IMG/VR virus record: IMGVR_UViG_3300020496_000002
Location: 1 to 30,530 of that record
Origin: a virus
DNA length: 30,530 nt
Direction: 5' to 3' (one strand)
The notes below the pieces were generated by a model, which saw only the letters and a list, made by a program, of their open reading frames with translations, was not told where the DNA came from and searched no databases. How positions within the stretch are numbered: position 1 is the first letter of the stretch; the number at the start of each line of letters is the position of its first letter. The position numbers were made by a program, and so were the translations under genes. This document shows, piece after piece, positions 3,219 to 29,895 of this stretch.

Positions 3219-3220
3219 AC

Positions 3221-4198
3221 CTATTTAATCATCTTGTTTTGACCTCTCATATTCATGAGTAGTCTTCCTGGGTGAATATTGCTAATTCTTATTTTCGCAT
3301 TTCTCAATAGAGCTGTCATTTCTTTTCTAGCTCTAGCAACAATATATTCCTGAACTCCCAACTTATTGTTTAGTATTGAATACTTAATGAATGAGTAGAT
3401 ATAGTTCTCAAACATTTTGTTTACACTGATAGCAGAGTCATCTCTAACAGCAACTGGCTTACCAGGAGGTGCTGTGGCTACAGATGTATACTCCATTCCG
3501 TCTGAAATGTATTCTAGTATGCATGACTCGTTAGCCATTTGATTAGTAAAATTAATAACACCAGCTTTCTTGTCTATCTTAAAGGTAGGGTTTTGATTAG
3601 CTGTTTCTGTATTTAGACCGTATCTACTACCAGCAGCATAATCGAAGTACCAGTTTCCTCCGTACTCCCATCCCCACATATTGTGGTATGGACTAGATGG
3701 ATTCAAGTAAATACTTTTCTGAATGTTATTTAATCTGTCAAAATCTAGTGTTGAGTTTTGAGCTTCAATAACTACACCGTTCTGATCTACAACAACCTTA
3801 TAATTGTTATCCTGAACGTATTCAACCGCTGAGTTTATCTGAATATTCTCAGTTAATGGAAGAATTAAACCATCCTTGTATAAAGAGATCTTAACCCAGT
3901 TCACGTAGTCAGAAGGCAAGACAAACTTCAAGTTTGGGCCTACTTTTTGCTCAAGGACTTTAATCTCCTTCATCGCATCGTAGTTCAATTCTTGAATAGC
4001 TCTCTTCGTGTAAAATAAAACCTTATACCTGTTGAGGTTATTCATCAGTTCATGGTCTCCTTGGTACATCAACATGAAGTTGTTGACGATATCTTCTAAA
4101 GATACGTACTGATAAGATCCCCAGTTAGCATCCTCTGGTGTGTTACCATTGTTGCTATAGTACTGAAGGTCAGATAGATATTTGTTGTATAGTGGCAT
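3221..4198 (-). CDS. Conserved virion neck/tail protein, 325 aa
   Basis: A 325-residue soluble protein with no signal peptide or membrane segment, located between the probable ring/adaptor protein and the stabilization-type protein. Its N-terminus is helical (residues about 25-90, including RYKVLFYTKRAIQELNYD), followed by a beta-rich segment with LPSDYVNWVKISLY (about 94-107), resembling the LPADYYTIVRVI segment of its upstream neighbour. The shared helical start plus LPxDY-strand layout suggests that the two are related or structurally analogous neck components. The start ATG overlaps the upstream stop by one base (TAATG), a strong sign of translational coupling. In crAss-like phages this position holds ring or tail-hub proteins. 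The role is inferred from position, not from a recognised enzyme motif. Confidence 0.65.
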   Translation of the reverse strand: MPLYNKYLSDLQYYSNNGNTPEDANWGSYQYVSLEDIVNNFMLMYQGDHELMNNLNRYKVLFYTKRAIQELNYDAMKEIKVLEQKVGPNLKFVLPSDYVNWVKISLYKDGLILPLTENIQINSAVEYVQDNNYKVVVDQNGVVIEAQNSTLDFDRLNNIQKSIYLNPSSPYHNMWGWEYGGNWYFDYAAGSRYGLNTETANQNPTFKIDKKAGVINFTNQMANESCILEYISDGMEYTSVATAPPGKPVAVRDDSAISVNKMFENYIYSFIKYSILNNKLGVQEYIVARARKEMTALLRNAKIRISNIHPGRLLMNMRGQNKMIK

Positions 4199-4899
4199 TA
4201 TTTCTCAATAACAATTTCTGTTTGTTCTTGCTGATTTGCAAAGTTAAGAGCTTCAATCTCTCTAATTGACATTCCAGCAAACTGCAAAATTTTAGCGACA
4301 AGAGTCGGTTCATCTGTAAGTGGTAACTCAAAGTCCTGATAATCTACGGCTCCTTGGTTAAACAATGGCTCACCAGAAACCAGTGTATATGTCCACTTAG
4401 GATCTTTAGGATATCTAACGTAGTAGCAAGAAACACCAGTTGAAATTGTGTCAGGATAAACGGTTAACTTATCCTCAAGTTGTACGTACGCTGGGAACAA
4501 TTCAATTGGCTGAGTCAAGTTCGACATCAAAAGTTGTTGAGCTCTAGCAATTGGAACCTTCTCGACTTCCACCATCTTGCCAACATTGTTTGTATGGATT
4601 ACCCTAACAATAGTGTAATAGTCAGCAGGAAGATCAAATGTACCAGAAGTCTTAGTAAGTGATACAATTTTTGATAATGAGTCAATAACTTCCTCGTACT
4701 GCTTCTTAATATCAGCATAGCCAGTACCAGACTCTCTAGCATTTTCTTTCAAGATCTGGTAATTGTATCTGTAGAAATAATTTTCAAAGATGTCTAGCTG
4801 TGCTTGCTTGGCAAATAGGTTGAAATCATTAGGGCTAATGTACCCGTAATTATTTTTGTTCAAAACAGACAGTACCGTATTTCTTACTGAATTTATCAT
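4198..4899 (-). CDS. Head-tail ring/adaptor-like structural protein
   Basis: I place the start at the ATG at 4899 (protein begins MINSVRNTVLSVLNKNNYGY). A frame extension to 4917 would need a TTG start and lies across a promoter-like box. The protein is about 233 residues: an N-terminal helical part with NDFNLFAKQAQLDIFENYFY, a central LPADYYTIVRVI strand, and an acidic C-terminus. The NKNNYGYISPNDFNLFAKQAQ pattern is one I recognise from crAss-like and related environmental phages, where proteins at this locus form ring/adaptor layers below the portal. The gene follows a strong terminator (4932-4953) and a TATCTTTG box (4915-4922), so it probably starts its own transcript, with a very short leader, running on through the next two genes. 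Confidence 0.68.
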   Translation of the reverse strand: MINSVRNTVLSVLNKNNYGYISPNDFNLFAKQAQLDIFENYFYRYNYQILKENARESGTGYADIKKQYEEVIDSLSKIVSLTKTSGTFDLPADYYTIVRVIHTNNVGKMVEVEKVPIARAQQLLMSNLTQPIELFPAYVQLEDKLTVYPDTISTGVSCYYVRYPKDPKWTYTLVSGEPLFNQGAVDYQDFELPLTDEPTLVAKILQFAGMSIREIEALNFANQQEQTEIVIEK

Positions 4900-4914
4900 C
4901 CCATTCTTTTTGTA

Positions 4915-4922
4915 CAAAGATA
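4915..4922 (-). promoter_or_regulatory. Candidate Bacteroidetes -7 promoter box (TATCTTTG)
   Basis: On the minus strand the sequence reads TATCTTTG, matching TAnnTTTG. It lies directly after the T-run of the terminator at 4932-4953 and 15 nt before the ATG at 4899. A terminator followed at once by a promoter box makes sense for starting the neck/tail transcript. No clear -33 TTTG was seen, since the upstream sequence is the terminator itself. Confidence 0.4.
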
Positions 4923-4923
4923 G

Positions 4924-4953
4924 TAAAAAAAAAGAGAGGTATTACCCTCTCTT
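4924..4953 (-). terminator. Rho-independent terminator after the 243-aa gene
   Basis: On the minus strand an 8-bp stem (AAGAGAGG/CCTCTCTT, arms 4946-4953 and 4932-4939) with a 6-base loop is followed by a run of T residues. The hairpin begins 8 nt after the stop at 4962. On the plus strand no T-run follows, so it acts only for minus-strand transcripts. This is the clearest terminator in the left half. Confidence 0.85.
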
Positions 4954-4961
4954 AATTTAGA

Positions 4962-5693
4962 CTACTCAACATTTCTTTCAAGTAACTTTAGTGTTTCAAT
5001 ACCTTCATCTGTCTGTAGGTATTTAGATACTGTTGAGATTCTATGCTCTCCGAATGGGATAGTCATAAACTTGCTCTTGTTATCTGAAAGGTTGAAATAA
5101 ATATCTCTTCCCTTGTTTCTAGTTTTAAGGATTTGCTGCTCAAATGCTCTGGCTACAATGTCTTGAACTCTTAGCATTGGATCATTTAATATCTCCATAA
5201 ATCTAATTGGGTACTGCTTCGCAAAAACAAGTACGTCTCTCTTTAGTTCTGAAGATGTTTTCTTATCTGCCTGAATACCAAGACCAATTCTAGCAACTGT
5301 CTCCATCATTGAAAGCTCCATTGATTTAGCAGCAATAAGCGCGTTCACCTCAATATCTAGATCGATAAGATCATTCTGAGCGTCTTTCTCTGGATCTAGT
5401 TCTTCAAAAATCTTTCCATTTCCTGGGTGATAATAAAGAAACTGCTGTAGTACTGGATTGCTTTCTGGTACGTGTAACATACCATCCTCAAATACAATTG
5501 GCTCAAGGACTACATTCCCGTCCTGCTCGTCAATAAATGGGCTTGGCTGATTTGCTGAATATCTCAGCTGTCTGTTTGCTTTACCATCAAAGTAAAGTAG
5601 CGGTCTTCTAGCTGTTCCCTTAGATGGGATCATCAAACTAAGTGGCGCGTCTGATCTTAGGAGAATATAAGTTCTCGATTTTAATTGTTCCAT
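4962..5693 (-). CDS. Conserved phage structural-module protein, 243 aa
   Basis: A 243-residue protein between the capsid region and the neck genes. The N-terminal third is beta-rich and carries LLYFDGKANRQLRYSANQ, SPFIDEQDG and LEPIVFEDGMLHVPESNPVLQ (about residues 32-83), then YYHPGNGKIFEELDPEKDAQ. The C-terminal half is helical. I recognise this pattern (FxDEQDG, LEPIVFxDGxLxVP, NPVLQxFLxxHPxNG) as a conserved but functionally unnamed protein in environmental Bacteroidetes phages. There is no membrane segment and no enzyme motif. It is bounded by hairpins on both sides (5719-5741 upstream, 4932-4953 downstream). Its place just after the capsid gene suggests a head or head-completion role, which is inference. 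Confidence 0.65.
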   Translation of the reverse strand: MEQLKSRTYILLRSDAPLSLMIPSKGTARRPLLYFDGKANRQLRYSANQPSPFIDEQDGNVVLEPIVFEDGMLHVPESNPVLQQFLYYHPGNGKIFEELDPEKDAQNDLIDLDIEVNALIAAKSMELSMMETVARIGLGIQADKKTSSELKRDVLVFAKQYPIRFMEILNDPMLRVQDIVARAFEQQILKTRNKGRDIYFNLSDNKSKFMTIPFGEHRISTVSKYLQTDEGIETLKLLERNVE

Positions 5694-15080: not shown

Positions 15081-15608
15081 TTAAAATATTCTTCTTCCTA
15101 TTCTTATTGTGTTTGAATTGTCAAGACCTCTGCTATAACCTAGCTCCCACTTCTTGTGAACAAATGTTAGACCTACAGATAAGTGATTGTTAATTGTGTA
15201 TGATGCGTTTGCGTACAATGACGAACGCTCTATTGTCTTTTCAACTATTGTATTTGTTACTGGGATCTGAAAATCTGGTTTAAATTCTAGATCTAAAAGA
15301 TGACCAGCGGTTGAAGCCTTATAACCTAGATCTCCAAACTCAGTCTTCTGTACACCCTCAAAAACATTTACTGGATACTTTACTTCTTTAATAACAGTAT
15401 CTCTAACGTACTTTGGCTTTGGGACATCAATGAATACATACTCCTTAAACGGTACGTTCTTTGTCTCATACTTGATTTTAACCTTCTCTTCTTTCTCCTG
15501 AATAGAAAGCACTCCAAATACAAAACCAACAACTACAGCGAGTAGATGAGTGTAGTACCTACGGATGGAAATACTTTTTAGTTTTTTTAATTCGTTGATC
15601 AATTCCAT
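15081..15608 (-). CDS. Membrane-anchored lysis accessory (spanin candidate), 175 aa
   Basis: A 175-residue protein with a short cytoplasmic N-terminus, one membrane helix (about 20-36, THLLAVVVGFVFGVLSI) and a periplasmic part. The periplasmic part starts as a charged stretch (QEKEEKVKIKYETKN) and ends in beta-like strands (SLYANASYTINNHLSVGLTF, KWELGYSRGLDNSNTIRIG). It overlaps the endolysin gene by 50 nt, which recalls Rz-type genes. An inner-membrane spanin is therefore plausible. No lipobox and no separate outer-membrane spanin were seen. The C-terminal strands look like outer-membrane beta-hairpins, which could reach the outer membrane directly. The function is inferred from topology and neighbours. 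Confidence 0.45.
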   Translation of the reverse strand: MELINELKKLKSISIRRYYTHLLAVVVGFVFGVLSIQEKEEKVKIKYETKNVPFKEYVFIDVPKPKYVRDTVIKEVKYPVNVFEGVQKTEFGDLGYKASTAGHLLDLEFKPDFQIPVTNTIVEKTIERSSLYANASYTINNHLSVGLTFVHKKWELGYSRGLDNSNTIRIGRRIF

Positions 15609-16152
15609 TTAGTCCTCCATTTATTCGCCTAGTTACAGCGGTTATTGATTCGTCAGACAAATCTTTACATAATGCAAATATGCGATTTTTTTTGAAGAAC
15701 CACAAGGCTATCTCAAAACCATACTGAAGTGTAAGATCTGGATTCTCTACAAAGTCGATACCAAAGTGCTTTGAAGCTTGTTCGTAGTTTGCTTTACCAG
15801 TTAGATGAATAGGTGTTCTTCCTCTGTACTTCCATCCGTCTCCTGACGATTCTGGACCGTTACCCATCCTGTTAGCATAAGCAATGTTAGCAATGTTTTG
15901 AGGCTTCCTCGCGTTAGCCATAGCAGTTTTTTCATTGAAATATTTTGGAAAAGTTTTTAATAATCCTTGAGCTGAATAATTAAGGTTCTCAACAAACGCT
16001 GTAAATCCAGCAGTCTCATGATCACACTGTCCAAAAAAATGAGCACACTCTACTGCGTTTAACTTGTGCTTTTCCGCGAACTTATTTACAGTTACTTTGC
16101 CAATAAGCCCGTCATCTTTAACACCAAGTGACTTCTGTAAATCTCTTACCAT
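15559..16152 (-). CDS. Endolysin, glycoside hydrolase family 19-like
   Basis: A 197-residue muralytic enzyme that cleaves the peptidoglycan glycan strand. Residues about 3-28 (LQKSLGVKDDGLIGKVTV) resemble a short peptidoglycan-binding repeat. The GH19 domain shows GQCDHETAGF with catalytic Glu46, ENLNYSAQGL, NRMGNG, GDGWKYRGRTPIHLTGKANY (104-123) and TRRINGGLNG near the end. The usual YRGRG-IQLTG is changed to YRGRTPIHLTG. There is no signal peptide, so release depends on the holin encoded just upstream (7-nt overlap). It overlaps the spanin candidate by 50 nt. The family is clear; the exact bond cut is not determined from sequence. Confidence 0.88.
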   Translation of the reverse strand: MVRDLQKSLGVKDDGLIGKVTVNKFAEKHKLNAVECAHFFGQCDHETAGFTAFVENLNYSAQGLLKTFPKYFNEKTAMANARKPQNIANIAYANRMGNGPESSGDGWKYRGRTPIHLTGKANYEQASKHFGIDFVENPDLTLQYGFEIALWFFKKNRIFALCKDLSDESITAVTRRINGGLNGIDQRIKKTKKYFHP

Positions 16153-16616
16153 GACTCCATCCAGTTAGATAGCCTTTTCAATATTTTTTCTAAAGGACTC
16201 TTAACGGATTTTGGAGGGTTTAGTTTGTAAAGGTTTTTAATCGCTGAAACAGCCTCAAATGCCATAAGTACTGATAAAGCTGCCGAATCAATAATGTCGC
16301 TAAAGAAACTTTCCTTACCTCCAATCTTTGCATTGTCAATTATACCAATAAGCATTACTGACATTGCTATGTAACCAAGTTTCTTAATAAAGCCACTCAT
16401 GCCTTTTGTGGCACTAAATCTTTTCTCTTTAATTGCGAGCCAAGAACCGAACACGGTGTCAAATAAAACTAGAAGCCCTATGCTTACTAGAAAGTCCCAG
16501 TCATTAAATACATACCTCTCGAATAGGTATATCACTGGCGTACCAATGAATGCTGAGTGAAATCCAAATGTGATGTTATCGCTGATAGTCCAGGGGGATA
16601 GGGCTTTTACTTGCAT
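16146..16616 (-). CDS. Phage holin
   Basis: A 156-residue membrane protein with about four hydrophobic helices (roughly 15-33, 42-61, 79-95, 105-125) and a basic C-terminal tail (KSPLEKILKRLSNW). The segment LLVLFDTVFGSWLAIKEKRF followed by SATKGMSGFIKKLGYIA fits the pattern of the Phage_holin_4 type (a D near the second helix, then a basic loop with G-F-x-K-K). It makes the inner-membrane hole that releases the endolysin. It starts the lysis cassette and overlaps the endolysin gene by 7 nt. A hairpin and a promoter box upstream may time its expression. Confidence 0.8.
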   Translation of the reverse strand: MQVKALSPWTISDNITFGFHSAFIGTPVIYLFERYVFNDWDFLVSIGLLVLFDTVFGSWLAIKEKRFSATKGMSGFIKKLGYIAMSVMLIGIIDNAKIGGKESFFSDIIDSAALSVLMAFEAVSAIKNLYKLNPPKSVKSPLEKILKRLSNWMESW

Positions 16617-17148: not shown

Positions 17149-17499
17149 TTACTCTGCACCAGGAGTTGGATCAGGAGTTGGAGGAGCCCAAGGAAGTGGT
17201 TCATCCTTAACCTTCAATTGATCAATCTGCTTTTGAATCTGAGCGTTTACATGCTCTTCATAAGACCCAACAACAACAGCTTGAATCCATCCAAGTACAA
17301 TCTCTTCTGTCAACTGATCGTAAGGAATAAAGTTGTCTGGATCAATTGAGCTAGGAGGAAATGGAGTTGCCCCAGAGAATACTCCCTCGTTACCTTGCTC
17401 ATCAACTCCTGTCTTTGTCCAGTAAGTCTGGATAATTGCGTTTGGCTCGTTAGGCAAGTCAATGCCCTTCATGCCAGTAACTTTCCATGTGTAAATCAT
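17149..17499 (-). CDS. DUF7936-like fibre-associated protein, 116 aa
   Basis: A 116-residue protein of a type common near phage tail-fibre genes. It begins MIYTWKVTGMKGID, has a beta-rich core, then the signature DNFIPYDQLTEEIVLGWIQ (about 66-84) followed by a helix that ends in Gln/Lys repeats (NAQIQKQIDQLK) and a Pro-rich tail. I recall proteins with the same YTWK start and PYxQLTEExVxGWV motif under DUF7936. The exact function is not known. A second protein with the same layout lies at 18759-19088, so the fibre region carries two. Confidence 0.65.
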   Translation of the reverse strand: MIYTWKVTGMKGIDLPNEPNAIIQTYWTKTGVDEQGNEGVFSGATPFPPSSIDPDNFIPYDQLTEEIVLGWIQAVVVGSYEEHVNAQIQKQIDQLKVKDEPLPWAPPTPDPTPGAE

Positions 17500-17510
17500 T
17501 TTTTTTATCT

Positions 17511-17879
17511 TTAAATGTGTGATTTTTCTTCTACAAAGTTAGAGTTATATTTTAAATTAATTTTCATCTTAATAGAAGCCCTTAAATCATTTAACTTATA
17601 AACGCTTCTAGCTGAAGATACAAATGATTCATTAAAAATATTATTGGATTCAAAGACTCTTAAATCATCTTCAACTTGCCATAACATTTGATTAACCTTC
17701 AATAGATTTTCGGAAAGATCATCATTAATAAGACCTTTTATTTTTAAAACTTCATTATACAGATACTCTATCTCTTTTTTGATGTTTATAAGTTTACTTT
17801 GATCTGAAATTCTCTCAGATTTTATCTTAAGTATTGTCCACTTATCTATTAACTCTCCAATTGATATTTCTACCTTCAT
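17511..17879 (-). CDS. DUF6165-like protein next to glycosyltransferase, 122 aa
   Basis: A 122-residue helical protein. It starts with MKVEISIGELIDKWTILKIK, then NIKKEIEYL, matching the ISxGELIDKxTILxIK pattern that I recall for DUF6165, a family often found beside lipopolysaccharide glycosyltransferase genes in bacteria. It has no membrane segment. It overlaps the glycosyltransferase by 4 nt (ATGA), so the two are made together. The biochemical role of the family is not established. Base composition is strongly AT-rich compared with the structural genes, consistent with later acquisition. Confidence 0.65.
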   Translation of the reverse strand: MKVEISIGELIDKWTILKIKSERISDQSKLINIKKEIEYLYNEVLKIKGLINDDLSENLLKVNQMLWQVEDDLRVFESNNIFNESFVSSARSVYKLNDLRASIKMKINLKYNSNFVEEKSHI

Positions 17880-18754
17880 TGATTTTCGATAGATTGAATT
17901 ATTTTTTCAAAACTAAAAATATCATTAAAACTCTCATAAGGCATATTTTGCAAAGGCTCAACAAGTCTAAACCTATTTATCATGTCAGTAGGCTTTTGAT
18001 ATTTTGTATGTGGATTTGCTAAAATATTTTCATGTATTTTGTATCCAAATATGTCATGGCTTGTAACACTCCATACAACTGTAGATGGTAAGTTCAATGC
18101 AGCTGCAATATGCTGAAAGGAACTATCTATAAATAGTCTCTTCTTTGAAGATTTCATTCCTATTGCAATCATCCTCCACTTGTCTTTAAAGTCTAGACAG
18201 TTGTTGTATTTAATTTGATGTTCTGCTCTTACAACACCTACAGAATACTGATCTTTATATTTGTCAATAATTCTCTGAACTATATTTGGTGGCATGTCTC
18301 TAGCCCAATTATATGAATCCATTCCTTGCTGAGGAGGCCCACCACCATTAGCTTGTATTATAAATACATCCTTTGGAAACTTGAAGAACTGTGTGTAATA
18401 TTGCTCTTCTTGTTTGGTAAAATATAGTTCTGGTAATTCGTCTTTGTATTCTTCTCCAATCATTGAGAACCATGACTGTATCAAATGTTCTATCTTATTC
18501 ATGTGACCATTAGATAAATATGGATCATTGAGTAAGAATAACACTTCTTGATTTTCTATATACTTCTCATAAAAATCTGGATCTTCTCCTTTACCAAGAC
18601 AAACGTCTACGTTAGGATTATTTAAAAAAGCATCTTTCCAAAATGTAAATACTATCAATTTACTTTGAGGATACTTTTTTTTTATTCTTGCACAAAAAGC
18701 AGTTGATGCTATGTTCTTGCCAAGACCACCATTTACTTCAAGTATGATATTCAT
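17876..18754 (-). CDS. GT9-like glycosyltransferase (heptosyltransferase-like), 292 aa
   Basis: A 292-residue protein with two Rossmann-like halves (GT-B layout). The N-terminus is IILEVNGGLGKNIASTAFC (3-21), the acceptor-side glycine loop seen in ADP-heptose:LPS heptosyltransferase relatives. The C-terminal half has RLFIDSSFQHIAAALNLPST (206-225), corresponding to the G/S-x-x-H-x-A-x-A-L-x-x-P motif of family 9. It is shorter than typical bacterial members (about 320-360). No membrane segment is present. It probably transfers a sugar to a host surface glycan or to a virion protein; donor and acceptor cannot be told. It pairs with DUF6165 downstream and lies in the tail-fibre neighbourhood. 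High AT content suggests horizontal origin. Confidence 0.7.
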   Translation of the reverse strand: MNIILEVNGGLGKNIASTAFCARIKKKYPQSKLIVFTFWKDAFLNNPNVDVCLGKGEDPDFYEKYIENQEVLFLLNDPYLSNGHMNKIEHLIQSWFSMIGEEYKDELPELYFTKQEEQYYTQFFKFPKDVFIIQANGGGPPQQGMDSYNWARDMPPNIVQRIIDKYKDQYSVGVVRAEHQIKYNNCLDFKDKWRMIAIGMKSSKKRLFIDSSFQHIAAALNLPSTVVWSVTSHDIFGYKIHENILANPHTKYQKPTDMINRFRLVEPLQNMPYESFNDIFSFEKIIQSIENQ

Positions 18755-18758
18755 TAAA

Positions 18759-19088
18759 TTACAATTCTATTATTAGAGTTTTTGACTCTTCTTCATTGAG
18801 CTGCAATTTAACAATTTTTTCTATATACTGTTTTTCTTTAGGATTAATTTTTACAAGTGCCCATTGAAGCACTTCTTCTTTTGAAAGTGTTGATGCATCT
18901 TTGAAGTCAGAAAGATCTATCAAGTTAAAAGAAACGTTAGTCGTATATTCTTTTTTATCATCTTCTTTTTCACCAACAAATATAAGTTCTACTGATTTGA
19001 TTACATTTTCTCTTACGTTACCAAACTTATCTGTAAAGCTTTTTTTAGCTTCTATTTTTCCTATTTTCCAATTATAAACCGCTTGCAT
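18759..19088 (-). CDS. Fibre-downstream protein, DUF7936-like layout, 109 aa
   Basis: A 109-residue protein overlapping the end of the tail-fibre gene by 17 nt. It begins MQAVYNWKIGKIEAKKSF, has a strand-rich middle (VIKSVELIFVGE, YTTNVSFNLIDLSDF), then a helical end with LSKEEVLQWALVKINPKEKQ. The YxWKI start and the EEVLQWAL helix followed by a second amphipathic helix repeat the layout of the 116-aa protein at 17149-17499, with low identity. Position right after the fibre suggests a fibre chaperone or fibre-bound protein. This is inference. Confidence 0.5.
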   Translation of the reverse strand: MQAVYNWKIGKIEAKKSFTDKFGNVRENVIKSVELIFVGEKEDDKKEYTTNVSFNLIDLSDFKDASTLSKEEVLQWALVKINPKEKQYIEKIVKLQLNEEESKTLIIEL

Positions 19089-22000
19089 CTAATCTAGATT
19101 TTATGTTATCAACTTGGACCTTAAGCTCTTTTATTGATTGAATAAGAAGAGGCGTAAACTTTTCGTAGTCAACAACAAGAGCAGTTACCACATGATCTTC
19201 TCTTTCTTTAGAAACTTCTCTTACCGCTTGAGGATATACAGCTTGAACTTCTTGTGCAATCACTCCAACCTCATGTCCTTTTCTAAATGCTTCTTCTTCA
19301 CCTAGTTCATTCCAATCAAACTCAACACCACGCATTGCTTCAATCTTATCAAGAGCTGAATCAATCTCTGTAATATTCTCTTTGTATTTGCAATCTGAAT
19401 ACCAATTTTGATAAAGAGTTCCTCCAATGTAAACGTCACCACTCCAAGAATCATAATAGAAACACTCGCCTGATGGTGGTGAAACTACAATTTGATATTG
19501 ATTTAAGTAAGCACTATTTCCGTAACTATTAAAGCTAAATCCACAACCACCTACACTCCAATTCACACAATAGGAATTAGTATTGCCATTTAATCCATAC
19601 CAATACAATGTATTAATTCCATCATAGCAACTAGCAGCTGATGCACGAACAAAACCACAACCTCCTGTTTGAATCGCTGCTTCGACACAAAGGCTATTAT
19701 TGATGTAAACATTACCTCCACCAAATCCATCTGATCCATTATTAACTGACATAACTTGTGTTCCCATGTCAGTATCCGTATAGAATCTTATACCGTTGTA
19801 AGAAGCATTAGCTCCAAGTTTAATTCCTGTATGGAATGAAATTCTTAAATCAGGATAAGGAAAAGCCCAAGATCCGCTTTCACGATATATTGCATAACCA
19901 GTAGATCCTCCTGAATCAAAATAAATACCATACGCATGATCTACATCTACAGTGTAATTATTCCTAAGGCTAAGGCTTAATAGTACATTAACTCTAGATG
20001 TTGAGTTAGGATCTAAATTATAATAAGTATCATTTGAATCATAAAATATTGGAGCTCTTAGAGATGTAATAGAATAAGTATACCCACCTCCATTATTTAA
20101 TTGAATATTATTGGCAGCACTATATCCTATATGAATCTGGCCTCCATCTGGTCTCCAAATTTGATCATAATTAATATTAATTTGACTACCATTACCAACG
20201 TAAAACTGATTTTCTACTCTTAAATAATTTAATAAAGATGTACTAGCAGGATCTACATAATATGAAGTGTTATTTAAGTCATAGAATATAGGAGTACGAA
20301 TAGAATTAATCGCTCTTACTGCACTATCTCCATCTCCAACACTAAATAATATACCAGTCGCAACATTCAATGAGTTATTATAAAAACGAACTCCATTATA
20401 AGTTGGATCTGCTCCTATTATTATTCCAGTATGCCAAGATAAATCTAGTCTATTATATGAATAAGATCCATAAGATTGATAAGTGGATTTAACCATATAA
20501 TATGGAGAGCTATCTGATCTAAGTCCCCAAGTAAGACCTATTATACCTCCATTACCTAATGAAGATGGATCCGCACTTGAACCACCTAAATTAATTACTC
20601 CTCCAGCTGCACCACTTGTTGTATTACTTCTTGCTACTAAATTATAATTAGCGCTTATATCTCCAGCTGTTAAAGATTTGGTACCTCCTGCGCCAATAAT
20701 TACACCACCTCCATCATAGTAATTAAGTTCTAAAGGATCTGATCCTCTACCATTTACTGTATCTGCATATACGTTTCTTCCTAAGAATCCATAAGTGGAA
20801 TCTCCTGAAAAGTAAAGATTATCATACGTTATAGAGTTCATTCTAGATCCTGATGCAGGATCTACATAATATCCAGTATTATTAGAATCATAGAAAATAG
20901 GAGCTCTGAAAGAGTTGATAGCCTCAACATAAGCACTAGAGTTAGGAATAAACATGGCAGGACCACTATATCCAGCTCCAAAATAGAAGTTTGCTTTAGA
21001 GTTACCGTATGCACCCAAGCCAATTACCCCAGCATAAGTATATTGACCACTGTTTTGACCAGAACCTCCTGAACCAAATACAATGGTTGATTCAACAGAT
21101 ATACTAGAAGAGTTGATCTGAAATTGACCATAACCTCCACTGTCAGAGTTCAATAGTAATTTACCTGAAAGTACTGAACCTGAAGCTGGATCAACATAAT
21201 ATGCCGTATTATTCTGATCATAATAAATAGTAGCATATAATGCTCCTCCTCCATTAACATTTATCCCATATATAGCAGGATATTTCCAGGAGTTAAATGT
21301 TCCAGTGTCACCATTTCTAGTTCTGAAAGCTAATCCATAACCATCCCCACCATAAGGAGCATTTAACCAAAGATCGTATCCACCATTTGCACTAAATCTT
21401 GCGATTGGTCCAGTATACGGTGCGTTTACACCATACGTGAATCCAGTCGCATTGGTATCCATTGTATTTGCATCCAAGGTAAAACCTTGATAATACATCA
21501 AATAAGATGGCTTACTTGTAACCCCACTCCAAGGAACTGAACTTGCAGATGCAGCACTACCAGCACTGTTAGCATAAGCAACACGAACTGCACCAGGAGT
21601 CGCTGGAGAAACTTTAAGTTCCCAATAGCTACCACCATCATAATTCATGTACATATAATATGGAGATGAACCCCCGTATGTATATGGTGCGTCTGATGCA
21701 TAAAGCCTGGTCGAGTTTAATGCATAGGTAGCATTACCTGTAATATTAATTCCCCAAGATCCAGAGGCAACACTTCTAATTGAAGACATTGCATTTGTAG
21801 GAGAAACAGACCTATAATAATTATCTCCCTGCTTGGTAATAAACGAGGTAATAGCTGTTCCTGCTCCAGGATTACCATCATCAGTCATGTTTATATAGCT
21901 ACCAAAGATGTAACCACTAGAGTCTCTTACAACAATATTATTTGGAACATTAGACTGAGAAGCACTAAATCCATCTACAGTCTCAGCGTTACCAGTAATA

Positions 22001-25000
22001 CTAATGCCCCATGTACCACTTGCATTGCTACCATTAGCATTTGCTTTACTATTGAATGTCGTCCAATCTGAGCTAGATAGGAATCCATTCTGTGACGCAG
22101 TTGCTTGTTGAATGGTAATGTTAGGAGTAGAACCACCGCTTGAAAACAATGGGCTTGATGCCGTTACCGATGAAACTCCAGCTGTAATAGTCCATGATCT
22201 ATCAGCAGACAAGTCATAACTTACTCCATTAATTGTGAGAGTTCTAGATGTTGGAACATAACTACCAAGCTGACCAAGCGCAACAAATTCGTTCGAGTTT
22301 ACAGCGTTAGATCCAATAACTCGACCATTGAAGTTAGCAACAACACCAGAAGGCAAGTCAGAAATAGCTCCTGTTGCAGCGTTAACAACTCCAGTAGTCT
22401 TTCCAACAATAATACCAGTAGAAAACTGTTGTACCCCAGTATTATAAGTGTACACAGGATATCTACCAGATGGATTGTTTGAGTAGTAGTCTAAAAGGTT
22501 TGAATTAATAGACGCACTTAAAAGTCTTTCTCCTGTAACAAGAACTCCTCTAAAGAATGAGATAGGAGTTGTTTCAAAACCGCTTCCATTTCTATTAAAT
22601 GTATTCACAAAGCTCCATGTAGCCTCTCCACTTGGAACAAGCTCATTTTGATTATAAGCAACCCTCAATCCATAAAGAGTATCAGTGCCAATCTTAAAGT
22701 TCAATACATCACCACCTCTAACAATAGTTTTAAGGCCAGTAATAGTTTGATCAGTAGCTAAAGTTACGTATCCACTTAAATCAGGAGCGTAGTTAGGGAT
22801 ATTTAACGTAGAACCTACTAACGTAGCTGCTCCACTTGTACCAGTTGTTGTAAGTGTTATAACATTCTGCTTGCCATTAAATGTAATCCAGTCAGAATTG
22901 CTTAATAATCCTGTTTGTGTAGCAGTAGCAACAGTAGAAGGAATAGTAACAGTCTTAGTATTGATAGCCGTAACATGACCCTCAGCAGATGATGTAACGC
23001 TATCGATAGCAGTGAATGATCCACCAAAAGATGGATCTTGAGTAGATGTTGTATCTGTTCTAGATACAGCATTGTGTATAAGAGTAATCGTGTTGTTAGT
23101 AGCCTGATTTGCACTAAATGTACCTGACCCTGAAAGAACTCCATTACCCTGGACAGTAAGAACTCCATCCTTAATGTCTGCTATTAAAGGATAAAATGCT
23201 GAGTAATCAGATTGATTAGCAACAATATTACCAACCCTTCCAAATACACTACTTACTGAGTCACTGTTATCAACCTTCTGCCAAGCAGTATCATGAAATA
23301 CGATCCAGTCACCTACCTGCCAATCAGTAATTCCGTTGATGTTTGTTGTACCTGCTACGCTTACAATGTAAAAAGTACCATCTGTACCAACACTTGAAGT
23401 AATTGTAGGAGTATTAGTCGATGCGTTCCAAGTTCCTTCATATTGAAGACCACCAACCAACTGGTTTACTTGATGCTGAAGTTTTCCAAACGCAGTTAAT
23501 ATTGAGTCTGTACTAAGAATCTCATTTCCTGCTATATTCAAACCTGTCAATACCTTTCCAGTTACAGCAGAGTTTGATAGCGTAGCAGCTACAGATCCAG
23601 GACCAGCAGCAGTAACTTCACCTGTAAGAGCAGTGATATAATTACCTTGAGGTGCAGGAGTATATCCAAGGATGGTACTAATAGTTGCACTCTTCCAAAG
23701 ATTTAAAGTAGTGTCTCTGTAAAGTAATCCATTATTTACAAATGGTTCAGCAGAAACATCGTGTAGTTCCTCAAGCTCATAACCATTGTCAATCTTTACA
23801 TAAATCTTACCATTGTTTGCATGAGCATACTCAACATATCCAAGAATAACAGTATGCTGAGGAGCAACTGGTTTAATATTTGTAATTGCTCCAGCTATTG
23901 TTGGACTCAAATAAATTACATCACCGTCATTCCAAGTTTCACCCTGAAGACTTCCAGTAGTGTTTATATTTGTGATCTGCCCAATATTTATAACAAAACC
24001 TTCTTGATTTTTAGATATGTTCTCACATACTAATCCTAAAGTTGATGCGCTGTTTAAATCATTATTAGCCTGAGCTAAAGTAACAGCAAGCCTCTGACCT
24101 TGAGCACCAGAAATTTTTACTGCTTGATAATTAGCTCTAAGTAGATTAACATCTGTATTATTTCTTACCTTAGAAATAACACTTTGACCAATTGGCACAC
24201 TGTATATGTTTCCTTGAACTGACAGCCTTACTGTTCCATCTGTATTATCCCACCACATTACACCTTCGGCAGAAGGTATGCTAGTGTTAGTTGTGTTAAA
24301 TCTTACAAAATCAGAAGTTAATCCATAAGTTCCAAGGTCCACATCTTGAGTAGCTCCTGTGTAAGGAACATAACCTGCTAAAGAAGGGAATGCGGCTAGA
24401 GATCCATCACCACGTATGTAATCAGCAGTAGTACCAGCACCAACAACAGTAAGCGTTCCAGATCCATTTACAGGGCTATTAGAGACAGTAAATGCAGATG
24501 GCATACTAAGACCTACGCTAGTAACTGTACCTACGTTCCATGTTCTATCTGCTGATAGATCGTAAGTTGTTCCGTTAATAGTAAGCTGTCTAGTTCTATA
24601 TGCGTATCTAATATCTCCCCAAGTAGTATCAAATGAAATATTTACATCTGAAGACAAGTTACCACCACCAGTAAGTCCAGTACCAGCATTGATTGACCTA
24701 GTTGTTGGCACATATTGACTAGCGTCAACAGATCCATCAGCCTTCAAGAACTGAGAAGATGTACCTCCAACCTTAATAAAAGAGTTTGCATTAATGTTAT
24801 TTGAACCAAGGTTCACGTTAGCACTTGCTCCAGTGTATGGGACAAACTTGTTGTCTGCCTCAGTCTTCGTATAAGCGTCAGTAATACCGTAACCACTCAA
24901 AGTTGTTGGTGTTCCTGTAATCTTTGACCAGTTTATAGAAGAGATAGAATCACTTGAAATAAGACCAAACAAAAGGTTGCCAGCAGATCTTAATAGAACA

Positions 25001-26121
25001 TGACCATCAGAGTTTGCCTGTATGTCAGCAGGATCACCAGTACTAAATACAGATCGTCCTATTACAGAAGTTCCTACGCTGTCTCTGAGCTTTTCATTGC
25101 TCACAGCGTTGTTTGATATGGTCGTAGGAATGGACGTCTTACCGCTGCCCGTAACGTCTCCAGAGAGCGTTATAGTTTGATTCTCCAAAAGGAATGGAGG
25201 AACGCCAGTAATTTTTGAAAATGCAAGGCTGTTAATCCATGTTGGATTATCGTAAGCCTGAGAAAGTCTAGGGTAAAAAGATTGATAGTCAGCCTCTAAA
25301 GGTAAAATAGCTCCAATTCTGCCAAACACGCTAGTTACAGCGTCAGTGTTATCTACTTTTTCCCAGTAAGACCCATTAGATATAATCCAGTCACCAACTT
25401 GAAAATCAATACCACCAAATACTCCAGCAACAGAAACAACATAGTAGTGTCCCTTTTCTTCTGGAACTAAAAAATTTAGAGTTGGCGTATTAGTAAGCGC
25501 ATTCCAAGTACCCATGTACTGAACCTGACCAATAATGGAATCAGGAATCTGAGATAATGGAACCTTACCACCTGCGTCTAGAGAAGCAACCCCGTTAGCA
25601 ACTCCAACAGAGGTCTTATCAACCTTAAGAGCAAGTAAAATATCTATCTCAGCATCTAAGTTAGATATAGCAGCATTTAACTGACCAAGTGTTGCAGACT
25701 CAGTTGTAAGAACAGCTGGAGGATGAATAATTCTTCTTGAGCTGGTAATAGATTGGCCCAAGTCATTTGGAATAACAAAAATGTTTTCTCCTTCGGAAAT
25801 AACTCTAAGCGCGTCAGCACCTGAGCTAGTTGTTTCTATTACAGCTCCGTTAAAGGCATAAATAGTTCCTCCTACAGCAAGACGATAACCCATGGCATTC
25901 ACGCCTCCAATCACGATGTTTGAACCGTCTTGGAAAATCTGTGAGTTACCTATTGAGGTATTTGATGTAAAAACAGGAACATATCCTGCATTTCCAGAAC
26001 CAGTTATGTTATCACCAAAAAAATCAGTAACACTAATTCTAATGTTCTGTTCTTCTGTATAACCTACAATGAAGTCTAGATCGCCAGGATCGCTTACTAA
26101 TAGAAAGTCCGAAAATCTCAT
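19072..26121 (-). CDS. Giant tail fibre with C-terminal S74 self-cleaving chaperone
   Basis: A 2349-residue receptor-binding fibre. The N-terminus (MRFSDFLLVSDPGDLDFIVG) is a probable virion-attachment segment. Residues about 195-275 and 885-965 are two copies of a module (QYMGTW/QYEGTW, DWQVGDWI, VFGRVG). The middle has trimeric-fibre repeats (VPYTGA, LTINGTTYDLSADRTW, STLNIPNYAPDLSGY). Four YDxNNTxYYVDP-type repeats lie near residues 1630, 1740, 1945 and 2025. The last 108 residues are an intramolecular chaperone (peptidase S74): SDCKYKENI with the Ser2242-Lys2247 dyad, GVIAQEVQAVYPQAV and a C-terminal coiled coil. Seven Cys lie in the 120 residues before and at the cut site. After trimerisation the chaperone is expected to cut itself off. 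Confidence 0.92.
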   Translation of the reverse strand: MRFSDFLLVSDPGDLDFIVGYTEEQNIRISVTDFFGDNITGSGNAGYVPVFTSNTSIGNSQIFQDGSNIVIGGVNAMGYRLAVGGTIYAFNGAVIETTSSGADALRVISEGENIFVIPNDLGQSITSSRRIIHPPAVLTTESATLGQLNAAISNLDAEIDILLALKVDKTSVGVANGVASLDAGGKVPLSQIPDSIIGQVQYMGTWNALTNTPTLNFLVPEEKGHYYVVSVAGVFGGIDFQVGDWIISNGSYWEKVDNTDAVTSVFGRIGAILPLEADYQSFYPRLSQAYDNPTWINSLAFSKITGVPPFLLENQTITLSGDVTGSGKTSIPTTISNNAVSNEKLRDSVGTSVIGRSVFSTGDPADIQANSDGHVLLRSAGNLLFGLISSDSISSINWSKITGTPTTLSGYGITDAYTKTEADNKFVPYTGASANVNLGSNNINANSFIKVGGTSSQFLKADGSVDASQYVPTTRSINAGTGLTGGGNLSSDVNISFDTTWGDIRYAYRTRQLTINGTTYDLSADRTWNVGTVTSVGLSMPSAFTVSNSPVNGSGTLTVVGAGTTADYIRGDGSLAAFPSLAGYVPYTGATQDVDLGTYGLTSDFVRFNTTNTSIPSAEGVMWWDNTDGTVRLSVQGNIYSVPIGQSVISKVRNNTDVNLLRANYQAVKISGAQGQRLAVTLAQANNDLNSASTLGLVCENISKNQEGFVINIGQITNINTTGSLQGETWNDGDVIYLSPTIAGAITNIKPVAPQHTVILGYVEYAHANNGKIYVKIDNGYELEELHDVSAEPFVNNGLLYRDTTLNLWKSATISTILGYTPAPQGNYITALTGEVTAAGPGSVAATLSNSAVTGKVLTGLNIAGNEILSTDSILTAFGKLQHQVNQLVGGLQYEGTWNASTNTPTITSSVGTDGTFYIVSVAGTTNINGITDWQVGDWIVFHDTAWQKVDNSDSVSSVFGRVGNIVANQSDYSAFYPLIADIKDGVLTVQGNGVLSGSGTFSANQATNNTITLIHNAVSRTDTTSTQDPSFGGSFTAIDSVTSSAEGHVTAINTKTVTIPSTVATATQTGLLSNSDWITFNGKQNVITLTTTGTSGAATLVGSTLNIPNYAPDLSGYVTLATDQTITGLKTIVRGGDVLNFKIGTDTLYGLRVAYNQNELVPSGEATWSFVNTFNRNGSGFETTPISFFRGVLVTGERLLSASINSNLLDYYSNNPSGRYPVYTYNTGVQQFSTGIIVGKTTGVVNAATGAISDLPSGVVANFNGRVIGSNAVNSNEFVALGQLGSYVPTSRTLTINGVSYDLSADRSWTITAGVSSVTASSPLFSSGGSTPNITIQQATASQNGFLSSSDWTTFNSKANANGSNASGTWGISITGNAETVDGFSASQSNVPNNIVVRDSSGYIFGSYINMTDDGNPGAGTAITSFITKQGDNYYRSVSPTNAMSSIRSVASGSWGINITGNATYALNSTRLYASDAPYTYGGSSPYYMYMNYDGGSYWELKVSPATPGAVRVAYANSAGSAASASSVPWSGVTSKPSYLMYYQGFTLDANTMDTNATGFTYGVNAPYTGPIARFSANGGYDLWLNAPYGGDGYGLAFRTRNGDTGTFNSWKYPAIYGINVNGGGALYATIYYDQNNTAYYVDPASGSVLSGKLLLNSDSGGYGQFQINSSSISVESTIVFGSGGSGQNSGQYTYAGVIGLGAYGNSKANFYFGAGYSGPAMFIPNSSAYVEAINSFRAPIFYDSNNTGYYVDPASGSRMNSITYDNLYFSGDSTYGFLGRNVYADTVNGRGSDPLELNYYDGGGVIIGAGGTKSLTAGDISANYNLVARSNTTSGAAGGVINLGGSSADPSSLGNGGIIGLTWGLRSDSSPYYMVKSTYQSYGSYSYNRLDLSWHTGIIIGADPTYNGVRFYNNSLNVATGILFSVGDGDSAVRAINSIRTPIFYDLNNTSYYVDPASTSLLNYLRVENQFYVGNGSQININYDQIWRPDGGQIHIGYSAANNIQLNNGGGYTYSITSLRAPIFYDSNDTYYNLDPNSTSRVNVLLSLSLRNNYTVDVDHAYGIYFDSGGSTGYAIYRESGSWAFPYPDLRISFHTGIKLGANASYNGIRFYTDTDMGTQVMSVNNGSDGFGGGNVYINNSLCVEAAIQTGGCGFVRASAASCYDGINTLYWYGLNGNTNSYCVNWSVGGCGFSFNSYGNSAYLNQYQIVVSPPSGECFYYDSWSGDVYIGGTLYQNWYSDCKYKENITEIDSALDKIEAMRGVEFDWNELGEEEAFRKGHEVGVIAQEVQAVYPQAVREVSKEREDHVVTALVVDYEKFTPLLIQSIKELKVQVDNIKSRLDASGL
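20001..21230 (-). repeat. Four YDxNNTxYYVDPASxS coding repeats in the fibre
   Basis: Short, diverged repeats encoding YDQNNTAYYVDPASGS (about 21179-21230), YDSNNTGYYVDPASGS (about 20847-20900), YDLNNTSYYVDPASTS (about 20249-20297) and YDSNDTYYNLDPNSTS (about 20001-20045). Each follows a segment like LRAPIF. The fourth has lost the second YV. They mark tandem shaft modules of about 80-200 residues. Confidence 0.8.
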
Positions 26122-27568: not shown

Positions 27569-28156
27569 ATGAATTCATTCAAAAGAAGAGCAAAAAGAGT
27601 TTGGGATAAAGAAAACATCCCGATCAGAAACATCAAGCGTCCAATATACGACAGAAGACATCCAGAGCACGACTACCTAAAGTACTGGAGGGTAATACGT
27701 TACTGGACACTACGCAAGTACAACCTAAAAAGTCAGGACCTGGACATGCTCCTGTTCCTATACAGCGAGGGTTATTTTGACAACGAAAGATTTGAGGAGT
27801 ACAACAACGTACTGAGCTGGGATATCGATAGATTTAGAAGGCTCCTAGAGAATGGATGGGTTCACGTATGGCGTGAAAAGACATACAACTCTAGGGCCCT
27901 CTATGAAATTACTGAGAAGGGTAGGCGAGCAGTGAACGCAATGTACAAGAAGCTCAACCGTGAGGAGATCTCAATGGACCCTCACACTAATCCAATGTTC
28001 CTCAAGGACACTGTCTACTCAGACAAGGTCATGAGAAACTTCATCAGAAAGATGAACATGGAAATGAAGGAGGCTAAACGCCAAAGACGTCAGGAGATTC
28101 AAGAACAACGACAACGTCTCGCTCAAGTATTACAGTCAAAACCTCTCCAGCAATAA
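27569..28156 (+). CDS. Winged-helix DNA-binding protein (MarR-like), 195 aa
   Basis: The only plus-strand gene in the window. It encodes 195 residues: a basic N-terminus (MNSFKRRAKRVWDKENIPIR), a winged helix-turn-helix at about 45-125 (LRKYNLKSQDLDMLLFLYSE, then WDIDRFRRLLENGWVHVWRE and a wing through RALYEITEKGRRAVNAMYKK), and a long basic Arg/Gln-rich C-terminal helix. The layout fits MarR/PadR-like regulators. It probably binds DNA to switch phage transcription. It is divergent from the small basic gene cluster (34 nt between starts) and convergent with groES, overlapping its end by 83 nt. Its likely terminator is at 28285-28315. No TAnnTTTG box was found upstream. Confidence 0.75.
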   Translation: MNSFKRRAKRVWDKENIPIRNIKRPIYDRRHPEHDYLKYWRVIRYWTLRKYNLKSQDLDMLLFLYSEGYFDNERFEEYNNVLSWDIDRFRRLLENGWVHVWREKTYNSRALYEITEKGRRAVNAMYKKLNREEISMDPHTNPMFLKDTVYSDKVMRNFIRKMNMEMKEAKRQRRQEIQEQRQRLAQVLQSKPLQQ

Positions 28157-28355
28157 TCATTTCATGAGAAGCAAACTTATCATAGTAGATAAACTCGCCA
28201 TCGTTGACCGACTTAACATCGTCACCAACCTTGACAATCTCACCTATACCATAGCGCATTTTATTTTTGTCATCAGCTGACAGTAGAAGCCCGACTTGTG
28301 TTCGGGCTTCTTTTTCTATTTTTCTGATTACCAGATACTTACCTATTGGTCTCAT
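28074..28355 (-). CDS. groES: Phage-encoded GroES cochaperonin, 93 aa
   Basis: A 93-residue cochaperonin-10, close to the bacterial length of about 97. It starts MRPIGKYLVIRKIEKEARTQ, with a mobile loop at about 16-30 (ARTQVGLLLSADD; the hydrophobic tripeptide is LLL where bacteria have IVL). Then come YGIGEIVKVGD, GEFIYYDKFASHEMIIAGEV and ILERDVVVVL. It should cap the phage GroEL heptamer, or that of the host. It lies downstream of groEL with a 17-nt overlap, the opposite of the usual groES-groEL order. The codons of the mobile loop contain a perfect 10-bp inverted repeat that serves as a terminator for the opposite strand. Confidence 0.85.
   Translation of the reverse strand: MRPIGKYLVIRKIEKEARTQVGLLLSADDKNKMRYGIGEIVKVGDDVKSVNDGEFIYYDKFASHEMIIAGEVLTVILERDVVVVLESPDVFGV
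28285..28315 (+). terminator. Plus-strand terminator inside groES
   Basis: The stem AGAAGCCCGA (28285-28294) pairs perfectly with TCGGGCTTCT (28302-28311) around a 7-base loop and is followed by T-rich sequence. It is oriented to end plus-strand transcripts of the winged-helix gene, whose stop is about 130 nt upstream. On the minus strand no T-run follows, so groES transcription is not stopped. It lies wholly within groES coding sequence. Confidence 0.8.
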
Positions 28356-29895
28356 TTGCGATTATTGCGTTTGTAGTTAAAATTGTAGTCGCCACGGAGA
28401 TGGCGTTTTTCAAAGCGGTCTTTGTAACCTTTAGCGGATCAACGATCCCCATGTCGAACATGTCTCCAATCTCGTTGGTCTTAACATTGAGACCCTCGTT
28501 ACCTGACGTATCTCGAAGCATCCCAAGGATAAATTCGCTGTCTAGGTCCGCATTCTTAATAATTTGGTTGAACGGAGCCTGGATTGCACTCACAAAACAC
28601 TCAACAACCCTGTTGTTATAGTTTTCATTCAGCAACTGCTGACCGATTCGGTACAGAGCGAGACCTCCACCTGCTACAATGCCCTCCTCCATCGCTGACT
28701 GAACCGCACAGACTGAGTCATCGACCCGATCGTACAGCTCCTTTTGCTCAACGTCTGAGTTACCACCCACGTGGATGATACCAACACCACCAGTTAAGTA
28801 CGAGATACGCTCCTTGATGAAGTCTCTGTCCTGCTTTTTGTTCGCCTGGTCGTGCGCTTGCTTCAACTCACTCACCAAAATCTCCAATGCCTCGGTGTTG
28901 TCGGTCTTTGGGTCTGGAACCAGCACCGTCTTGTCTCTCGATACTACTACTTTTGACGCAAAGCCAAGATCATCGAAGCCAATTAGTGCTGTGTCATCGC
29001 CTGACATCTGACTGAAGAACCGTCCTCCTGTCGCAACCGCCAGGTCTTGCATCAGCTCGTGCTGCTTATAGCCAAACTGAGGCGGCTCTACGATGCAGTA
29101 CTTCAAGTTATTCTTCAACACGTTCGCTGCGATCGTATTTGTGAAGTTCGCAGAGCATGGCGCAACGATCAACAAAGGCTTCCGACTGTCAATCACTGGC
29201 GCAAGTGCGTTCTGGATCTGAGTGATGCTCGATAGCTCGATGTCTGTCATCAAGATGTAGCAGTCCTCAGCAACGTACTCGTCATTCTTCTGATTGTTCA
29301 CGAACAATTTGTTCGTATACCCACGATCCATGCGGATACCTTTGATCACCTCAGCGTAGGTCTCCGTGGTCATCGACTTCTCAACCGTCACCACACCGTT
29401 CTTCCCGATCTTCTTGTACGTGTCAGCGATCAATTTCCCAATGTGTCTGTCGTTGTTGGCAGAAATTGTGGCAATGTCCTCTATCCAACGCTTAGTTGTC
29501 CGAACTGCCATCTTGGCAAGCAAGCCCTCAGTCCTCTCTGACAGCTCGTTGATCTTCTTGACCGTACCCCAGTCAGCGTTCAACGCCATCCCACCCTCAA
29601 CAAGGGCCTCGGTTATCACCACCGCAGTGGTTGTCCCATCGCCTGCCGTCATCGCAGTCCTCTCACTGGCCTCCCGAACGATTCGAACAGCCATGTTCTC
29701 CACTGGATCGTTCAAGTGAATGCTCTTTGCAACTGTAACACCGTCCTTTGTGATTGTTAGACCACGAGTATGTGTCGGAGAGTCAATGATCACCGTCTTA
29801 CCACTCGGTCCAAGAGTGCTCTTCACTGCACTCGACATGGTCTTGACACCACGTAGTAGTTTGTCACGACCTTCTTGGTCAAAGTAAACTTCCAT
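28339..29895 (-). CDS. groEL: Phage-encoded GroEL chaperonin, 518 aa
   Basis: A full-length chaperonin, 30 residues shorter than E. coli GroEL (548). ATP-binding elements are present: LGPSGKTVII (28-37), TITKDGVTVAKSI (47-59), AGDGTTTA with Asp86 (84-91), and RVDDSV (390-395), where Asp393 matches the catalytic D398, then EGIVAGGGLAL. The apical domain is diverged: the stretch LLIVAPCSANFTNTIAANVL (241-260) replaces the usual EDVEGEAL-type substrate-binding helix. The C-terminal Gly-Gly-Met tail is absent; it ends in NETNR. It probably folds phage proteins such as capsid or fibre. By eye it is more GC-rich than the fibre and glycosyltransferase genes, suggesting a different history. It is preceded by a good -7/-33 promoter. 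Confidence 0.93.
   Translation of the reverse strand: MEVYFDQEGRDKLLRGVKTMSSAVKSTLGPSGKTVIIDSPTHTRGLTITKDGVTVAKSIHLNDPVENMAVRIVREASERTAMTAGDGTTTAVVITEALVEGGMALNADWGTVKKINELSERTEGLLAKMAVRTTKRWIEDIATISANNDRHIGKLIADTYKKIGKNGVVTVEKSMTTETYAEVIKGIRMDRGYTNKLFVNNQKNDEYVAEDCYILMTDIELSSITQIQNALAPVIDSRKPLLIVAPCSANFTNTIAANVLKNNLKYCIVEPPQFGYKQHELMQDLAVATGGRFFSQMSGDDTALIGFDDLGFASKVVVSRDKTVLVPDPKTDNTEALEILVSELKQAHDQANKKQDRDFIKERISYLTGGVGIIHVGGNSDVEQKELYDRVDDSVCAVQSAMEEGIVAGGGLALYRIGQQLLNENYNNRVVECFVSAIQAPFNQIIKNADLDSEFILGMLRDTSGNEGLNVKTNEIGDMFDMGIVDPLKVTKTALKNAISVATTILTTNAIIANETNR

Follow-up and report, generated by a model that had tools for sequence, protein, structure and literature searches.

A fibre-linked glycosyltransferase and DUF6165 gene pair in a phage genome, with a possible role in fibre-tip modification

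Gene order and integrity of the pair

Why a freshwater phage should carry, between its tail fibre and its lysis genes, a glycosyltransferase-like gene and a DUF6165 gene is the question raised by a 30.5-kb stretch of DNA from an IMG/VR virus record (30,530 nucleotides, referred to as a whole as the window), which also contains genes for terminase, portal, capsid and chaperonins. By terminase, the closest isolates were Flavobacterium phage elemo, at 45.5%, and Cellulophaga phages; the spring-water record MW202828 stood at 71%. The original prediction had described the two genes as typical of bacterial lipopolysaccharide (LPS) loci, and had suggested that they change the host surface or glycosylate the fibre or capsid.

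All genes of this neighbourhood lie on the minus strand, in an order beginning with a tail fibre of 2349 aa (19072-26121; PHROG tail fibre matches) that ends in an S74 chaperone (Peptidase_S74 at residues 2242-2301, 59.7 bits against a cut-off of 22). This is followed by a DUF7936-like ORF of 109 aa (18759-19088; 26.3 bits with Pfam, narrowly below its cut-off of 27), the glycosyltransferase (GT) gene of 292 aa (17876-18754), the DUF6165 gene of 122 aa (17511-17879), a DUF7936 paralogue (17149-17499; Pfam 53.8 bits), a 131-aa ORF, a holin (16146-16616; Phage_holin_4_1, 51.1 bits), which marks the boundary of the cassette neighbourhood, and a GH19 endolysin (15559-16152; Glyco_hydro_19, 42.3 bits; PHROG endolysin, 201 bits). 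Both genes of the pair start with ATG. The DUF7936-like ORF overlaps the fibre by 17 nt and is separated from the GT gene by 4 nt, and the plus-strand letters "tcat" at 17876-17879 read as ATGA on the minus strand, so that the GT stop overlaps the DUF6165 start. The placement between fibre and lysis genes and the co-translation by ATGA overlap were thus as originally described, as was the AT-rich composition, with a GC content of 31.4% for GT, 24.9% for DUF6165 and 27.9% for the DUF7936-like ORF against 41.2-45.5% for the terminase, portal and capsid genes. The cassette is likewise AT-rich in the relative L004. Both frames are open in close relatives, with dN/dS values against L004 of 0.093 for GT and 0.198 for DUF6165; both genes are intact, with purifying selection acting on them, and the possibility that they are degraded remnants, raised in the original prediction, is ruled out.

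The pair is flanked by the two diverged DUF7936 paralogues, neither of which was mentioned in the original prediction. No relative of DUF7936 with a solved structure was found.

A GT9-like fold and its probable DUF6165 partner

The GT9-like identity proposed for the GT gene was borne out by fold and less so by sequence. Pfam GT9 (PF01075) gave only 11.9 bits over 34 residues, below the gathering cut-off of 22. The AF2 model (pLDDT 92.2, built from 31 related sequences) aligned to the GT9 structure 3tov with a VIA Z of 21.6 (rmsd 3.4, 265 residues aligned), followed by WaaF (20.3), TibC (19.3) and WaaC (19.1), the next unrelated entries scoring about 11; three plant NDH-complex chains also reached 17-18. 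In an hhalign comparison with a GT9 alignment of sequences from bacterial and viral loci (99.1% probability), Lys13 of the phage protein, a member of the “GGLGK” clade, fell on the Asp of the N-lobe "GD" motif, so that the catalytic Asp, placed in that motif by these alignments, is absent. The C-lobe D-S/T ... H ... AAA motif is present, with D210, S211 and H215 conserved. The model thus shows a GT-B fold like that of GT9 heptosyltransferases, and the active site departs from the canonical one. The label "plain GT9 heptosyltransferase" was not adopted, as the Pfam score lies below the cut-off and the catalytic Asp is replaced.

The same features place the protein with respect to characterized enzymes. 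It resembles the LPS heptosyltransferases WaaC and WaaF in having a GT-B fold of two lobes along its full length and the C-lobe DS..H..AAA..P motif, but differs in having Lys13 at the catalytic Asp, a sub-cut-off Pfam GT9 score and linkage to a phage fibre. TibC, whose catalytic base Asp was named from superposition with WaaC and MurG, heptosylates a surface protein (PMC4358343), so that glycosylation of such a protein by a GT9-like enzyme is not without precedent. The GT-B core is shared (Z 19.3), but the 292-aa GT model aligns only from TibC residue 97 onward and lacks the N-terminal beta-barrel and an equivalent of Asp110, with three scattered Cys rather than a four-Cys iron finger.

The replaced Asp raises the possibility that the transferase does not work, or that the two genes were carried over from a bacterial sugar locus and do nothing connected with the fibre, which would also accord with the AT-rich composition and with the small number of relatives that carry the pair. 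However, among 118 GT-family sequences position 13 was K in 97, D in 14, R in 5, N in 1 and a gap in 1, so that the Lys/Arg is itself conserved, and D210 was retained in 117; together with the dN/dS values of 0.09-0.20 and the repeated linkage to fibres in unrelated phages described below, this makes such a reading very improbable.

The DUF6165 assignment (PF19662) was confirmed by Pfam at 56.1 bits against a cut-off of 27, and the phage protein holds all 28 invariant residues of a 50-row alignment in which it is itself included. Its AF2 model is a four-helix protein (pLDDT 95.6). A fold search of the PDB gave a best Foldseek E of 0.39 and a best VIA Z of 7.3, which is in the chance range for helical bundles, and a profile match to 3jqh (E 1.9e-5), covering 54 residues of a C-type lectin chain, was taken as a helical-repeat coincidence. 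Six matches with E of 1e-3 or lower were found in BFVD, all within longer proteins of 212-723 aa, one being labelled a glycosyltransferase and one an acetyltransferase. No paper naming DUF6165 was found in a literature search on the domain.

In bacteria, a GT9 or GT match lay within 500 bp of DUF6165, or was fused to it, in 58 of 80 loci (the best 80 of 520 matches), the tally of GT9/GT matches in this sample being 56 within 500 bp or fused and 13 elsewhere. The 58 loci are not independent, since many represent one convergent arrangement in Stenotrophomonas and relatives. The association with bacterial LPS loci in the original prediction therefore holds for DUF6165 more exactly as an association with GT9 genes than with LPS loci generally. 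Three loci of the same sample, from Reyranella, Methylocella and a planctomycete, encode a TPR region, a GT9-like part and DUF6165 in a single chain (L295:6057-8378, L325:5595-8381 and L327:6366-8384). By Pfam, the GT9 part passes in L295 (27.8 bits) and falls below the cut-off in L327 (18.3 bits); in L325 it was matched by a custom profile only (28 bits), GT9 being absent among the 25 Pfam families listed. No flagellar family was found around these fusions among the 25 of 99 families listed (60 of 116 listed neighbours). This architecture matches that of FlmG, a flagellin glycosyltransferase with TPR and GT-B parts (PMC7591256), whereas the phage GT has no TPR. Among viruses, a GT lay within 500 bp of DUF6165 in 21 of 76 loci (from the best 80 of 388 matches), the commonest surrounding families being methyltransferases and sugar-synthesis enzymes (117 of 147 listed neighbours scanned). 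On the evidence of these gene neighbourhoods, DUF6165 is probably a partner of GT9-like enzymes and may bind the transferase.

Exchange with the fibre end and linkage to fibres

These locus scans covered the best 80 of 545 GT, 388 viral DUF6165, 520 bacterial DUF6165, 600 terminase and 598 anchor matches, and the resulting counts are samples of best matches, not censuses. Among the best 80 of 600 terminase matches, DUF6165 was present only in L016, a 7.2-kb contig that also carries the downstream DUF7936. The relatives L018-L020, with terminases 94-97% identical, are without the pair, and their fibres end differently; when 13 contigs including these three were searched again, none matched (0/13), the positive control giving 5/6. 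Conversely, L004-L006, with terminases about 70% identical, carry the pair with an 83%-identical GT. The interval from the fibre end to DUF7936 (17161-19472) shares 82.6% identity with L004 against 70.6% for the terminase/portal stretch, and by gene the values with L004 are 83% for GT, 69.5% for terminase and 51-60% aa identity for the neighbours o192 and o92. This higher identity of the GT and fibre end than of the terminase and neighbours implies that the fibre end and cassette moved together. Immediately ahead of the S74 domain, the tip sequences of the fibres vary among these phages. The pattern fits an accessory cassette that would be exchanged together with the distal end of the fibre. 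The pair, which the original prediction had suggested looking for in other genomes, thus occurs in L004-L006 and also in two loci from unrelated phages, L184 and L185, besides the bacterial associations given above. A plasmid search gave no match.

A hotspot slot for GT genes in this lineage was considered and found unsupported, since 34 relatives without a GT yielded 131 listed proteins for the slot, of which 103 were scanned and showed no GT family. In one relative of the same lineage, L173, the slot is taken by sulfotransferase-, APS-kinase-, nucleotidyltransferase-like and small membrane-like ORFs (90-2296), ahead of a DUF6165 whose matched segment is 66% identical; these enzymes, named by resemblance to Pfam-tested relatives, suggest sulfation of a glycan. 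In the GT-less relative L018, an ORF containing NUMOD3 and resembling homing endonucleases (2315-2995) lies directly 3' of the fibre.

Linkage to fibres extended beyond the lineage. A fibre-like, S74 or DUF7936 ORF lay within 3 kb in 26 of 30 dereplicated viral GT loci compared with 9 of 42 viral DUF6165 loci (p = 4e-8). Such a gene was found within two genes of the GT in 17 of 30 loci and of similar-size background ORFs of the same loci in 46 of 107, so that part of the signal arises because GT loci are fibre regions overall. In three unrelated phages (Pelagibacter phage HTVC112P, L184 and L185) the GT lies beside an S74 fibre, with DUF6165 in L184 and L185. HTVC112P gp48-gp49 are an S74 fibre followed by a 25%-identical GT, with a lysis gene soon after, as here; it differs in having no annotated DUF6165 at that place and in belonging to another phage lineage. 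Related GTs were also neighboured by sulfotransferase, APS kinase, 2OG-Fe oxygenase and carbamoyltransferase genes.

A GT that changed the receptor bound by the fibre would be expected to show this linkage as well. The pair may accordingly be read as acting late in infection on glycans of the host surface, at the LPS core or the O-chain, either blocking superinfection or freeing progeny from debris, in which case the GT would have to match the receptor of the fibre and linkage would follow. In keeping with this, the GT fold is equally near to the LPS heptosyltransferases and TibC, viral DUF6165 is often found beside GDP-mannose dehydratase, epimerase, WavE and GT25 genes, and GTs of the pelagimyophage "host recognition cluster" have been interpreted in this way (PMC7029224). 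However, no sugar-synthesis genes were seen in the window (from the ORF list, with Pfam or PHROG scans of most ORFs), a late gene would on general grounds be ill-timed for exclusion, and both the Cys-rich tips described below and the TPR-GT9-DUF6165 fusions are left unexplained. We regard a host-surface role as a substantial possibility and as less probable than modification of the fibre.

The DUF7936 genes bear on another candidate acceptor. Close relatives of the DUF7936-like ORF were found in six loci, whose contigs are precisely the six with the GT, whereas the downstream kind lies directly 3' of the fibre in the GT-less relatives L019 and L058. In the window, as in several unrelated GT loci, a DUF7936-like ORF directly precedes the GT, and DUF7936 was present within 600 bp in 13 of 76 GT loci (from the best 80 of 545 matches). 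The GT might thus act on DUF7936 proteins, another tail part or another phage component, its position by the fibre being an operon convenience; but most GT loci have no detectable DUF7936 nearby and the Cys signal sits in the fibres, and we consider this unlikely. In many relatives an ORF of 100-120 aa lies behind the fibre, as if each fibre end came with its own small partner.

Cysteine-rich fibre tips and the proposed function

Seven of the eight Cys of the fibre fall within one stretch of 110 residues adjoining the S74 chaperone. Fibre-like ORFs with at least 5 Cys per 110 aa were found in 33 of 48 dereplicated GT loci compared with 3 of 44 GT-less terminase relatives (p = 4e-10), where dereplication and "fibre-like" follow composition rules of our own and the counts require a fibre-like ORF (65 of 76 GT loci kept, 61 in the terminase set, 24 for viral DUF6165). 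Among fibres sampled by their S74 domain, the 140-aa tip held 5-8 Cys in the six loci with GT and DUF6165 (contigs L001-L006, in effect two lineages) and 0-1 in the other 57, the tip being shorter than 140 aa in 12 of the 63 loci (contig edge or short fibre). The 57 Cys-poor fibres included L422-L425, with 63-66% S74 identity and no GT in the locus. In a lineage-matched test, 7 of 11 loci with GT and 4 of 22 without were Cys-rich (p = 0.017); with thresholds of 4, 5 and 6 Cys, inspected before one was fixed, p was 0.008, 0.017 and 0.017, respectively. Fifteen of the 48 dereplicated GT loci were not Cys-rich; the maximum in L012 was 3 Cys per 110 aa, and L463 and L464 combine a GT with an S74 tip that has no Cys. 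That Cys-rich tips are exclusive to GT loci is ruled out by the Cys-rich, GT-less L337, L348, L361 and L398, in which no GT was found elsewhere on the contigs (possibly fragments). The association is therefore clear and non-exclusive, with phage relatedness only partly controlled. No clear sequon was found around the fibre cysteines. The locus L104 has a fibre-like ORF of 1820 aa (3-5465) with 84 Cys (4.6%), followed by an APS-kinase-like ORF and a GT.

Glycosylation of the fibre tip by the GT, with DUF6165, is favoured over host-surface modification because the fewest assumptions are then needed to account for the fibre linkage, the joint exchange, the high Cys content of the tips and the TPR-containing chains, and we hold it to be an evenly balanced proposition. 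The two genes would form a fibre-linked modification cassette, presumably expressed late, in which a cytoplasmic GT-B enzyme of GT9-like fold has DUF6165 as its partner subunit and takes a sugar from the host nucleotide-sugar pool. We infer this activity, the sugar, the contact between the two proteins and the acceptor, which would be the newly made tail fibre, most likely modified at the distal, Cys-rich tip and ahead of virion assembly; the added sugar might tune receptor binding or protect the tip. The intactness of the genes, their overlap, the modelled fold, the fibre linkage, the exchange with the distal fibre and the DUF6165-GT9 association are what the analysis itself shows. Against a role at the tip, most viral DUF6165 genes sit amid sugar-synthesis or other enzyme genes. 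Of the two roles first suggested, a change of the host surface thus came out second on the grounds of exchange, proximity, tip composition and fusions, while glycosylation of a virion protein is preferred for the fibre, nothing pointing to the capsid.

Elements of such a system are already known. GT genes occur among the fibre genes of aquatic phages in the pelagimyophage cluster, as here, but GT8 is the most represented there, the genes are read as LPS modifiers, and neither a DUF6165 partner nor a Cys-rich tip is described in the available part of PMC7029224. Virion proteins of mycobacteriophages are glycosylated by a phage-encoded system (Freeman et al. 2023, as cited in PMC12619734 and PMC10955285), with capsid and tail tube as targets and, in the portions available of these two sources, the fibre tip not among them. 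A literature search on fibre-linked GTs and Cys-rich fibres, which most subscription papers lay outside, returned no description of this system, and the DUF6165-GT9 association, Lys-for-Asp clade and Cys-rich-tip link appear to be without description in the literature searched.

More speculatively, and with a rather low likelihood in our estimation, the locus could belong to a widespread system of aquatic phages in which a Lys-for-Asp enzyme of GT9 fold, with DUF6165 or, in related loci, another partner such as a sulfotransferase, an APS kinase or 2OG-Fe oxygenases, puts a sugar, perhaps S-linked on Cys and sometimes sulfated, onto Cys-rich fibre tips and is swapped with the distal fibre. If the fibre-tip reading is right, many aquatic phages would recognise their hosts through fibre sequence together with an enzymatic decoration that travels with the fibre, and knowing the fibre gene would not suffice to predict host range. 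DUF6165 would also gain its first functional clue, as a companion of GT9-like GTs in bacteria, phages and possibly giant viruses.

In addition to the cassette, phage-encoded GroEL (28339-29895; PHROG 438.9 bits) and GroES (28074-28355) genes adjoin the fibre region, as also found in the relatives L033 and L034 and in MW202828. A plus-strand gene of 195 aa (27569-28156) lies amid the minus-strand run and weakly resembles winged-helix regulators, and may control the late genes.
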